From positions 186,001 to 250,000 of the forward strand of contig NZ_JAHVJQ010000001.1 in the NCBI RefSeq assembly GCF_019801145.1: 64,000 nt of DNA, read 5' to 3'. The notes below the pieces were generated by a model that was not told the DNA's origin, ran no database searches, and saw nothing but the letters and a program-made list of their open reading frames with translations. This document shows, piece by piece, positions 30,603-33,533 of the stretch (position 1 is the stretch's first letter; every line of letters begins with the position of its first letter). This DNA is from Leisingera aquaemixtae (GTDB taxonomy: Bacteria > Pseudomonadota > Alphaproteobacteria > Rhodobacterales > Rhodobacteraceae). Both the position numbers and the translations under genes were made by a program.

Positions 30603-30633
30603 GTGAATAACGCGGTGAATAACCTGTGAATAA
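30603..30633 (+). promoter_or_regulatory. Three helically phased GTGAATAA direct repeats
   Basis: GTGAATAA occurs exactly at 30603-30610, 30615-30622 and 30626-30633, i.e. with 12- and 11-bp steps, about one helical turn. Spacing like this is typical of activator or iteron-like binding sites. They lie 155-185 bp before the repeat gene ATG and about 36 bp upstream of a possible -35 box. Confidence 0.6.
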
Positions 30634-30693
30634 GTCGAATTAATTGAAATTGAGCAAAAAATAGCAGCTTGAAGTTAAAGTAATCTGAGTTAC

Positions 30694-30720
30694 AAAATGC
30701 AATGTAAAATTGCATTTTTT
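30694..30720 (+). terminator. AT-rich hairpin plus T-run in the leader of the repeat gene
   Basis: AAAATGCAAT (30694-30703) pairs perfectly with ATTGCATTTT (30709-30718) around GTAAA, with more T after it. It is terminator-like and 70 bp before the ATG. It may be an attenuator, the end of a short leader RNA, or simply a DNA site overlapping the promoter. Confidence 0.45.
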
Positions 30721-30787
30721 GTTTGCGCTGCGCGATTGCCGTGCCAGCGTCAAGGAACCTTTTGTCTCTAACGAATGGGGTTCCAAC

Positions 30788-31456
30788 ATGACTGCTCAGC
30801 GTAAAATCCAGACCATCCGCGCAACCCGCCCGGCCGCAGGTGCCAGCCTGTACGGGGGCGAGGCGACGGAGATGTTCTCCTCCGGTTCGGCGCCCGAATG
30901 CACTGCGGATCTGTCTGCAGGGGAGGGTGTTTCGCTGTTCTCCTCTGGCTCCATGCCGCAGATGTCGGACAGCTGGGCAGGCGGCGAAACCGGCCTGTTC
31001 TCCAGCGGCTCAGCCACTGCGGCCCGCAGTGATACCGCTGCCGGCGATTTGGTGGAGATGTTCTCATCCGGCTCCGCCCCGGCGGTGCGGGCGGCTGCTG
31101 CTGAGGGGGATCTGGTGCAGATGTTCTCCTCCGGATCGGCGCCTGTTTTGCAATCTGAGATTGCGGAAGGCGGTTTGACGGAAATGTTCTCCTCCGGCTC
31201 CGCCCCGGCGGCAGAAAATGTAGCCGCAGCTGGCGATCTGACAGGCATGTACTCCTCCGGCTCCGCACCCGCGGCGCAGGCCGGAACCGGGGCTGGCGAA
31301 GGGGTGGAGATGTTCTCTTCCGGCTCGGCCCCGGCAGCCACGGCGGAGGCTGGCGCGGGCGAAGGAACGCATCTGTTCTCCTCCGGCTCCGCGCCGGCGG
31401 CAGAGGCCCGTACCAGCGACGGCGACGCAACCCGGCTGTTCTCCTCGGGCAGCTGA
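30788..31456 (+). CDS. FSSGS tandem-repeat protein, candidate precursor/scaffold peptide
   Basis: Protein of 222 residues with no signal peptide and no membrane segment. A 20-residue leader-like N-terminus (MTAQRKIQTIRATRPAAGAS) is followed by ten tandem units of 20-21 residues. Consensus: small residue-G-E/D, three variable residues, M/L, then FSSGSAP and a variable Ala-rich tail. The aromatic residue is at 30, 51, 71, 92, 113, 134, 155 (Tyr), 176, 197 and 218; the last unit ends in FSSGS at the stop codon. There is only one Cys (39). Ser codons in the motif switch between TCN and AGC, so the motif itself is under selection. No enzyme domain. A hairpin and two cooriented genes follow. A ribosomal-peptide precursor or a multivalent binding protein are both possible; function unknown. 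Confidence 0.85.
   Translation: MTAQRKIQTIRATRPAAGASLYGGEATEMFSSGSAPECTADLSAGEGVSLFSSGSMPQMSDSWAGGETGLFSSGSATAARSDTAAGDLVEMFSSGSAPAVRAAAAEGDLVQMFSSGSAPVLQSEIAEGGLTEMFSSGSAPAAENVAAAGDLTGMYSSGSAPAAQAGTGAGEGVEMFSSGSAPAATAEAGAGEGTHLFSSGSAPAAEARTSDGDATRLFSSGS
30848..31453 (+). repeat. Ten 60-63-nt tandem coding repeats (FSSGS units)
   Basis: The unit is 21 codons, except unit two, which has 20. The TTC-TCC core is very similar at DNA level, but third positions and Ser codon families vary, e.g. TCCAGCGGCTCA in unit three and TCCTCGGGCAGC in unit ten. The variable tails differ strongly, so the array is not a recent perfect duplication. Confidence 0.9.
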
Positions 31457-31463
31457 TCAGCGC

Positions 31464-31487
31464 GGGGCCGGCCTCCCTCCCGGCCCC
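31464..31487 (+). terminator. GC hairpin after the repeat gene (attenuator-like)
   Basis: GGGGCCGG (31464-31471) pairs perfectly with CCGGCCCC (31480-31487) around an eight-base loop, starting eight bases after the repeat gene stop. There is no T-run, so it is more likely an mRNA 3' end stabiliser or leaky attenuator than a full terminator. It would favour more repeat protein than downstream products. Confidence 0.55.
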
Positions 31488-31543
31488 GGATCTCCGGGCG
31501 GCTCCAGGCCGGGGCCGCCCTCAGCCGCGCCGCATCCATCCGC

Positions 31544-31549
31544 AGGAGG
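31544..31549 (+). promoter_or_regulatory. Perfect AGGAGG ribosome binding site
   Basis: AGGAGG ends five bases before the ATG at 31555 and fixes the start of the 353-residue gene. Confidence 0.85.
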
Positions 31550-31554
31550 TTTCC

Positions 31555-32616
31555 ATGGCCCAGATCATTCCGTTCTTCTCTCCCGCCGCCCGTCAGTCCC
31601 GGGCGGCCGCGCATGAGGCGCTGATTGCCGGTTTCTCGACGCACCGGCGCAGCCAGGAGGACGTGTTCTGGCTCAAGGAAAACGCCGAACTGCTGAACAT
31701 CCTGGAGTGCACCGGGGCCGATGTCGCCCCTGAAGCCCTGGCGCCGCTGCAGATGTTCTATGACGGCGCGGCGCGGCATATCAGTTTCTTCCGCCAGTAT
31801 TACCGTTTCATCCTTTCGATCTGCCTGGATCTGGAGGATTTGGGCCTGCCCGGGGAAACCGGGGCGCAGCTGGCGGCATGGGTCCAGGCGCAGGGGCTGG
31901 CGCAGGCAGAGCTGTCGGACCTGCAACGCGCCGAAGCCCGCCGCCTGCTTGCGCGCCGCGGTGAAAACTTGCGCGACGACGGGCTGGACGACCGGCTGCG
32001 GGCCTTCATCTGCTGCCCGCGGACCTTTGCCATCCCGAATAAGAAGGCGGCATACGAACTGACCCACATCGTTTTTTACCTGTCGGAATACGGCCGCCGC
32101 GACCCGCAGCTGCCGCAGGCCGCGCTGACCAGCCTGGAGTTCGCCGGCCTGGTAGCCTTCCTCGACCAGAACGCCGATCTGCTGGCCGAGATCTGCATTG
32201 CGCTGCGCTATGCCGGGCAGCAGCCGCCTGGCGCCTGGGAGCGCTGGCTTGACAGGCAGGTTTCCGCTTTTATTCTATCAGAACGAGAATTTTCTGGACT
32301 TCACGATTCTTATCACGAGTATTTTGTTGCCAACTGGCTCATGATCCTGTCCGGGCGAAAACCTTTCCGGCAGGCGGTTCCCGCAGGGGGCGTGCATGTG
32401 TCAGCTGTACGGGGAGGAAGTATTTTGAAAAGCCTTTCAGAAGCCGTTTTTGATGCCGGAGCAGCCCGCGCGAGCTGGAGCGCGGTCAAGGTGCACGCCG
32501 AAGCCCTGCTGAATGAGGAAGAACACCGGTTGCTTGCCGCGGCTGAGCGCAGCTGCGCCGGGTTTCCCGGCTTTTTCGAAGGTTTTGCCCGCGCGGGCAG
32601 CGCAGGGGCGGCGTGA
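31555..32616 (+). CDS. Unrecognised helical protein, partner of FSSGS repeat gene
   Basis: Soluble protein of 353 residues, predicted almost all helical, with no signal peptide. I recall a family in Rhodobacteraceae with this look (possibly DUF6902) and no known function. Distinct stretches are HISFFRQYYRFILSICLDLE (75-94), KKAAYELTHIVFYLSEYG (163-180), FLDQNADLLAEICIALRYAG (202-221) and SGLHDSYHEYFVANWLM (247-263). His 171, 250 and 254 and Cys 90, 153 and 154 are candidate metal or catalytic residues, but no known motif is met. The T-H-x-V-F-Y pattern resembles uncharacterised proteins near natural-product genes, as far as I remember. The next gene overlaps its stop by one base. Confidence 0.8.
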   Translation: MAQIIPFFSPAARQSRAAAHEALIAGFSTHRRSQEDVFWLKENAELLNILECTGADVAPEALAPLQMFYDGAARHISFFRQYYRFILSICLDLEDLGLPGETGAQLAAWVQAQGLAQAELSDLQRAEARRLLARRGENLRDDGLDDRLRAFICCPRTFAIPNKKAAYELTHIVFYLSEYGRRDPQLPQAALTSLEFAGLVAFLDQNADLLAEICIALRYAGQQPPGAWERWLDRQVSAFILSEREFSGLHDSYHEYFVANWLMILSGRKPFRQAVPAGGVHVSAVRGGSILKSLSEAVFDAGAARASWSAVKVHAEALLNEEEHRLLAAAERSCAGFPGFFEGFARAGSAGAA

Positions 32617-33533
32617 TGCAGTGCGCACGCAGGCAGGCGCTGGCGGGCGCGCTGCTGGTGGTGGTCTACACCGGGCTCATCGCCTCCGCTGACGGGATCA
32701 CGAAATTGCTGGCGGGCCAGTATGCTGCGGCGCAGCTTTATGCGCTGTCCGGCGCCATGGTGGCAGTCTTCTGCCTGCTGGCCGACCGGCTGCCGGGCCA
32801 GCGCGGCGGGTTCCGCACGGCCTGCCCGCGGGCGATGGCGCTCAGGTCGGTGGCGACGCTGATTGCCGCCGTGTGCTTCTTCTATGCCTTCCGGCTGCTG
32901 CCCTTTGCCGAGGTGTTCGTGTTCATCGGGCTGATGCCGCTGCTGGCAGGCGCGATGTCCGGGCTGGTGCTGAAGGAGCCGGTGCGCCCGGCGGCCTGGA
33001 TTGCGCTGGCGGCGGGATTTGCGGGGGTGCTTTTCCTGCTGCCCCACAACGACGGCGGGGCGCATGCGGACTGGGGCCACATCATCGCATTTGGCGCAGT
33101 GGTCTCCGGCACGTTTTCCATGACCATGGCACGGTTTATCGGGCGTTATGAAAGCAACGCGCTGGCGCAGGTGCTTTATCCGAACCTGACCCTGTGCGCG
33201 GCGATGCTGCTGGTGCTGCCCTTTGTCTGGCTGCCGATGCCGCTGGCGGATGTGGCCTGGGCTGCGGCCTATGCGTTCCTCTTGTTCGGGGCGCGCTGGC
33301 TGCTGGTGGTGGCGCTGCGGCTGCTGGCGTCTTATGCGGTGACGCCGCTGATGAACCTGCAGTTCATCTGGATGGCGGTGATCGGCGCGGTGTTCTTCGG
33401 GGAGTTCCCGTCAGCCTCCACCTATCTCGGCGGTGCCATCGTGATTGCCTCCGGCCTTTATCTGGTCTGGGATCAGTTTGCCCCGGCGATGCCGCGGCTG
33501 CGCAGCGCCGGGCGGCTGCGGACCGATCCGTAG
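32616..33533 (+). CDS. DMT-superfamily EamA transporter
   Basis: Membrane protein of 305 residues with ten helices in two EamA repeats (about 10-140 and 155-285). RAMALRSVATLIAAVCFFYA starts the middle of the first repeat, and PLMNLQFIWMAVIGAVFFGE the end of the second, with the Glu near the last helix common in the family. EamA proteins export small metabolites and amino acids rather than large peptides. ATG 32616 overlaps the TGA of the 353-residue gene; GTG at 32613 is an alternative. This coupling ties it to the repeat-peptide operon, where it may export the product or a derived small molecule. Confidence 0.88.
   Translation: MQCARRQALAGALLVVVYTGLIASADGITKLLAGQYAAAQLYALSGAMVAVFCLLADRLPGQRGGFRTACPRAMALRSVATLIAAVCFFYAFRLLPFAEVFVFIGLMPLLAGAMSGLVLKEPVRPAAWIALAAGFAGVLFLLPHNDGGAHADWGHIIAFGAVVSGTFSMTMARFIGRYESNALAQVLYPNLTLCAAMLLVLPFVWLPMPLADVAWAAAYAFLLFGARWLLVVALRLLASYAVTPLMNLQFIWMAVIGAVFFGEFPSASTYLGGAIVIASGLYLVWDQFAPAMPRLRSAGRLRTDP

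Follow-up and report, generated by a model that had tools for sequence, protein, structure and literature searches.

A multicore precursor-like repeat protein, a DUF6902 protein and an EamA exporter as a candidate peptide-maturation cassette of Rhodobacteraceae

Multicore precursors of ribosomally synthesized and post-translationally modified peptides (RiPPs), such as those of graspetides/microviridins, cyanobactins and dikaritins, consist of a leader followed by near-identical, spaced cores and are encoded beside a dedicated enzyme. We analyzed a three-gene locus of comparable design in Leisingera aquaemixtae (Rhodobacteraceae), located in a 64,000-nucleotide stretch of DNA (hereafter, the window; contig NZ_JAHVJQ010000001.1 of assembly GCF_019801145.1, positions 186,001 to 250,000 of the forward strand). 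The locus encodes a repeat protein, a partner belonging to the Pfam family DUF6902, and an EamA-family exporter, with the following features (positions are those of the window).

30788 to 31456, forward strand: multicore precursor-like repeat protein, 222 amino acids (aa), with a leader starting MTAQRK, ten [FY]SSGS units and a C-terminus that is exactly the last core
30875 to 31453, forward strand: ten-core array, with the core F/Y at residues 30, 51, 71, 92, 113, 134, 155, 176, 197 and 218
31457 to 31554, forward strand: GC-rich inverted repeats and a Shine-Dalgarno AGGAGG (31544-31549), between the precursor and partner genes
31555 to 32616, forward strand: DUF6902 (PF21843) protein, candidate peptide-modifying enzyme, a distant relative of DUF6895 (PF21836), with conserved H171, E178, D208, E212 and Y253-H254
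32616 to 33533, forward strand: EamA-family exporter, 305 aa, whose start overlaps the DUF6902 stop and whose orthologues at E ≤ 1e-45 were found only in DUF6902 carriers

The locus shares with multicore RiPPs the leader, the spaced near-identical cores and the adjacent gene for a putative dedicated enzyme, so its architecture is that by which a RiPP is defined, with DUF6902 as the candidate for the enzyme. It differs from them in that the usual RiPP enzyme families were not found at the locus, and in its cores of about five residues, present in 2-20 copies per precursor. The only Pfam matches of the three genes were to DUF6902/DUF6895 and EamA. YcaO, LanB/M, radical SAM, ATP-grasp and lasso cyclase proteins were absent from the trio, its ten neighbors and the representatives of four recurrent neighbors (other recurrent clusters were judged by eye), in agreement with what the initial annotation had stated. 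We consider the locus very probably a multicore peptide-maturation cassette, and probably a RiPP-like system in which DUF6902 modifies the cores, perhaps by epimerization, and the EamA protein exports the product. The initial annotation had been made from the letters alone; its observations and its single gene unit held, the special role it gave to a hairpin did not, and its account of the partner, the exporter and the scope of the core is corrected below.

The precursor is indeed a ten-unit repeat protein, and no signal peptide is apparent, the N-terminus having no hydrophobic stretch as judged by eye. Nine units carry FSSGS and one carries YSSGS, with spacings of 21, 20 and then seven times 21 residues. 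SSGS occupies core positions 2-5 in all ten units and Gly is invariant six residues ahead of the core (10/10), whereas the flanks are far less alike than the cores. The Ser codons of the cores are mixed (TCC/TCT/TCG/TCA/AGC), and together with the divergent flanks this indicates that the cores are conserved at the amino acid level and are not the result of recent duplication. A search for a second precursor copy in the same genome found none.

Distribution and co-inheritance of the trio

DUF6902 homologues were found in 82 of the 295 Rhodobacteraceae genomes sampled (73 of the 260 of good quality). A pattern scan of the species-genome collection returned 361 candidate stretches, 352 of them encoding a relative, and the best 80 were kept as named loci; the sampled and named sets overlap in genomes, and their 160 usable loci gave 141 distinct enzyme sequences. 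Among the best 80, the eleven nearest loci, nine of them from Leisingera, have partner identities of 79-89%. When 289 genomes of the class were searched with Pfam, four had a match, three within the Rhodobacteraceae and the fourth under the cut-off.

A repeat open reading frame (ORF) lies directly upstream of DUF6902 at 78 of the 83 sampled and 79 of the 80 named loci as scored by script, with a median gap of 69 nt; the sampled count includes L166, for which the script picked the wrong ORF and three units are evident by reading. The exceptions include L023 and L077, which have a masked stretch yet a visible FTSWSGP unit, the divergent homologue L122, and L172 and L173 at contig edges. The gene slot is also stable. 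In the named loci, exonuclease III lies upstream on the opposite strand (76/80), followed by the precursor, DUF6902 and EamA (70/80), and then by erpA, dgt and argS (argS in 63/80). The exonuclease gene was located in 18 of 20 DUF6902-negative genomes (19 loci, L198-L216), and erpA adjoins it at a distance of 30-1347 nt in 16 of these 19 loci, the remaining three having none within the stretch. This adjacency indicates that the cassette is either present or absent at that site. Orphan precursors were sought in nine of the 16 empty-site gaps and none was found. Several of the larger exonuclease III-erpA gaps contain other open frames.

The exporter was annotated as overlapping the stop of the partner gene, and this proved correct, with a start at GTG 32613 or ATG 32616 and the partner TGA at 32614-32616. 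Its claimed coupling to the partner is correct in one respect, namely that orthologues (E ≤ 1e-45) were found only in partner-carrying genomes. They were detected in 41 of 198 genomes, every one a DUF6902 carrier, in a search for which many genomes had just 11 first-look candidates scored; taking the 198 genomes as G000-G197, this corresponds to 41 of 55 carriers and 0 of 143 others. The coupling is not general, however, as the exporter is absent from 17 of 80 sampled loci, and the minimal unit is thus enzyme plus precursor. Among described transporters, the protein resembles YddG-type EamA/DMT exporters in its EamA domain (Pfam) and a weak NCBIfam YddG match; it differs in scoring far under the YddG cut-off (14 vs 300 bits) and in belonging to a subfamily seen here only in DUF6902 carriers.

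Outside the family, a complete trio was present in another class of the phylum (L190), amid unrelated flanking genes. Its precursor carries FGCYT/LGCYT/YGCYT units, its DUF6902 gene scores 343 bits at 39% identity, and the overlapping EamA gene is 37% identical. The near-universal upstream precursor, the restriction of the exporter to partner carriers and this recurrence among other neighbors together show that the three genes form one unit, as initially proposed. Judged from gene order and co-occurrence, the trio is a genuine unit that is widespread and inherited together. No relative was found on viral contigs, nor on plasmids searched with the DUF6902 query, and the three proteins matched no PADLOC anti-phage defence family at E up to 0.1.

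The hairpin past the precursor stop had been read as a processing element. The GC-rich inverted repeat is real, but its folding energy is ordinary relative to dinucleotide shuffles (z -0.87; 37 of 200 shuffles fold equally well or better) and no T-run follows it, so we gave it little weight. A special RNA element was rejected, the fold being what such GC-rich DNA would ordinarily form.

Core sequences across precursors

The family unit consensus is G-[DE]-x-[VT]-x-[MLA]-F-x-[ST]-x-x-[AG]-P. Across 966 majority-core units from 138 loci (L166 left out), Gly occurs at position -6 in 95%, Phe at core position 1 in 92%, Ser/Thr at position 3 in 97% and Pro as the second residue past the core in 84%, all percentages being conditional on a script motif that restricts position 1 and limits position 3 to S/T/A/C/G/P. 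Position 4 is Gly in 60% of units, and Gly is not among the leading residues at positions 3 and 5. The leader pattern MxAxxK was found in 93 of 138 precursors, and 108 of 157 precursors end at their last majority core.

The label FSSGS, by which the system was first described, applies to this locus and is merely one among 42 core labels (positions 2-5) across its relatives. The cores include FSSGS, FTSGS, FTSGA, FTSGL, FTSSL, FTSSM, FTSWS, FVSWS, FPSWS, FCSAS, FTSCA, FSTSC and FTTSC. At least 60 label changes were counted on a FastTree phylogeny of 141 enzymes, in which long branches leave deep placement uncertain. Left out of the tree were three loci that are divergent or lie at a contig edge (L122, L172 and L173) and 19 duplicate enzyme sequences, and the labels of L166 (wrong ORF by script), L150 (wrong register) and L023/L077 were assigned by eye.

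Within a precursor the cores are mostly uniform, and 551 of 582 units from 78 named loci carry the majority core. Positions 2-5 were identical in 1938 of 2127 unit pairs within precursors (91%) and in 43049 of 200000 sampled unit pairs between precursors (22%), with the masked loci L059 and L077 left out. The flanking 4-mers were identical within precursors in only 14-16% of pairs (296/2127 before the core, 262/1686 after it). The loci L054 (FSSGS, six units) and L062 (FTSGS, seven units) illustrate how a change is distributed over an array. Their enzymes are 95% identical, and the first and last units have retained their own flanks. At position 2, each of the six L054 units has Ser and each of the seven L062 units has Thr, and just one base separates the last cores of the two arrays. 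Duplication of arrays by itself would hardly produce such a pattern, which points to selection for a single uniform product. Whole arrays seem, from these comparisons, to have switched core together as species diverged, and this joint change of every copy offers a clean case for studying how repeated cores co-evolve. Uniformity within a species and coordinated switching between species suggest that a single homogeneous small peptide is required by the cell, for instance as a signal or a competition factor.

Some arrays, L042, L072, L094 and L096 among them, hold two core types each, e.g., FSTSC flanked by FSSGS, or FTSGS and FTTSA in alternation. Such arrays may yield two products or be caught midway through a switch. 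At L171, two small repeat ORFs precede DUF6902, with LFTSGS-type units in one and LFGSSC-type units in the other.

The DUF6902 partner and the DUF6895 family

The partner had been described as a 353-residue protein preceded by AGGAGG, which is accurate. Its description as an unknown helical protein needs one correction, in that the protein is already catalogued in Pfam. It matches DUF6902 with E 2.6e-140 and 467.8 bits (cut-off 27) over all 351 profile positions (1-351), and DUF6895 with E 1.3e-22 and 80.9 bits (cut-off 23.8) over only profile positions 18-232 of 289, so that it scores as a member of both families. A profile-profile comparison of DUF6902 with eight DUF6895-type proteins gave a probability of 97.5 and E 5.7e-12 over 182 columns; of the eight, L119, L120, L187 and L196 are Pfam-confirmed, and L186, L188 and two of L189 were assigned by tblastn or neighboring similarity plus the motif. 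The two families share the motifs Y-x-x-[TS]-H-x-x-F...[DE]-x-G, D-x-x-x-E and Y-H. H171, E178, G180, D208, E212 and Y253-H254 of DUF6902 pair with positions invariant in the eight proteins, and, G180 aside, these residues are invariant or almost so across 66 DUF6902 proteins. No cofactor domain, whether ATP-binding, radical SAM or other, is assigned to the partner by Pfam or NCBIfam. The structure model is all-helical and of high confidence (pLDDT 91.8, pTM 0.91). A Foldseek search of the PDB with this model gave no match at E ≤ 0.001, only weak matches to helical proteins, and a PDB sequence search with the partner gave no relative at E up to 1.

In the literature searched, we found no paper on DUF6902 and none combining RiPP, Rhodobacteraceae, precursor peptide and core peptide, and DUF6895 appears there only as a reference title. 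That title (Shi et al. 2026, cited in PMC13352647) names a DUF6895-family epimerase in lasso peptide modification. No lasso genes were seen beside DUF6902: the ten scanned neighbors include neither a macrolactam synthetase nor a leader peptidase, and neither was seen to recur across the 80 loci, which sets the cassette apart from lasso systems. A chemical analogy is offered by MslH, the peptide epimerase of MS-271, which is reported to epimerize a C-terminal residue by metal-dependent acid/base chemistry, using Ca(II) and His/Asp pairs in a calcineurin-like fold (PMC10406935). The analogy concerns the way of working only and claims no membership, since the DUF6902 model is all-helical and has no PDB match at the threshold used.

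A small peptide ORF lies directly upstream at seven of the 13 DUF6895/DUF6902-type loci examined outside the Rhodobacteraceae (L119, L120, L186, L187, L188, L196 and, with an array, L190). This, together with the kinship to DUF6895, adds weight to the initial suggestion that the partner modifies the units, a modification we still infer from gene context and homology. DUF6902 is accordingly best described as a candidate enzyme.

Proposed maturation and its alternatives

In the maturation we propose, a leader-bearing precursor carries many copies of the short core F-x-[ST]-x-x. Ahead of each copy stands G-[DE]-x-x-x-[MLA], which resembles a recognition site, and [AG]-P comes after most copies. 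DUF6902 would recognize each unit and modify its core, as suggested by kinship, co-occurrence and the conserved polar residues. The best single guess for the reaction is L-to-D epimerization at core position 3 or 5, with the conserved His and acidic residues providing acid/base catalysis, although we hold this chemistry only tentatively. Position 3 or 5 is weakly favored as the target, because Gly is not a leading residue at either, unlike at position 4. The units would then be freed by a protease encoded outside the cassette, and the EamA transporter would export the product, in line with its gene overlap and co-occurrence. Taken to its full extent, and here with considerable doubt, the system might be a new RiPP class in which an all-helical enzyme without known cofactor domains puts D-residues into identical five-residue cores, as many as about 20 per array, and EamA releases a species-specific short peptide; the cores would be a code that switches jointly, like a roseobacter pheromone or competition signal.

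Several points weigh against this reading. Chemistry, cleavage, export and product are all deduced indirectly. The epimerase link stands on a paper title, and DUF6902 is only distantly akin to DUF6895; the absence of a PDB match means that structure lends the chemistry no support. Although the initial annotation had proposed looking for extra enzymes in other copies of the locus, no protease or additional enzyme was seen recurring beside the cassette across the 80 named loci (partly by eye). EamA is missing downstream not only from the 17 sampled loci mentioned above (one further locus has no room for it) but also from 10 of 80 named loci, and at L140 DUF6902 has neither a recognizable precursor upstream nor EamA downstream. 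Of the units counted in named loci, 31 of 582 depart from the majority core of their own precursor, some arrays being mosaic. Six of the 13 outside loci (L189, L191-L195) have no peptide ORF directly upstream; L189 has a 62-aa ORF farther upstream, and the matches of L191-L195 to the family are partial.

The alternative that survives best keeps the multicore architecture and assigns DUF6902 another reaction, e.g., cyclization, dehydration or proteolytic release of the units, and we give it a chance not far short of even. Ser/Thr is a usual target of several RiPP chemistries, and core position 3 is almost always Ser/Thr under the script motif described above. The lack of a recurrent protease nearby also fits this alternative, and the conserved His/Asp/Glu set is compatible with several reactions. 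Set against these, epimerization is the sole activity reported, by title, in the related DUF6895 family, and the partner has no cofactor domain of the kinds searched for.

A multicopy peptide signal whose cores are excised and exported plain, with DUF6902 as a regulator, immunity or sensing protein, appears improbable. A signal with a matching receptor would fit the uniform core of each species and the coordinated switching, but no receptor-like gene was seen recurring at the locus (partly by eye), and the conserved residues of DUF6902 resemble an active site and are common to a family reported, by title, to hold an enzyme. Least probable is that the repeat protein serves, unmodified, as a multivalent scaffold or binding protein with DUF6902 as binding partner or chaperone, a scaffold having been left open by the initial annotation: the all-helical model and the regular 20-21 residue spacing may accommodate it, as may the indirect case for modification, but a binding motif should persist across species, whereas the cores here switch together between species in mostly uniform arrays, 95% identical enzymes serve FSSGS and FTSGS arrays, and an exporter is coupled at most loci, so a conserved scaffold was rejected as the main explanation.

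If the proposed modification and export of the cores are correct, more than a quarter of the sampled genera (81 of 294) of the Rhodobacteraceae, a family abundant in the sea, produce a small peptide not yet described, using an enzyme family that the literature searched does not cover. The 42 natural core labels would then offer a ready-made set of substrates for a possible peptide epimerase.

The wider superfamily spans Actinomycetota, Bacillota and at least two classes of Pseudomonadota. At the DUF6895-type loci L119, L120, L186, L187, L188 and L196 (Pseudomonadota, Actinomycetota, Bacillota), the short peptide ORF directly upstream recalls the arrangement at DUF6902. Several of these peptides have a GLhDxxxTL-like stretch and a W-containing tail; they differ from the precursors above in having one or two such tails and no long array of equal cores. 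They are possible uncharacterized RiPP precursors. At L119 (4119-9741), an MFS transporter, an O-methyltransferase, a C39/C70-type cysteine peptidase, a short peptide and the DUF6895 gene are clustered, and this region is a candidate peptide gene cluster.

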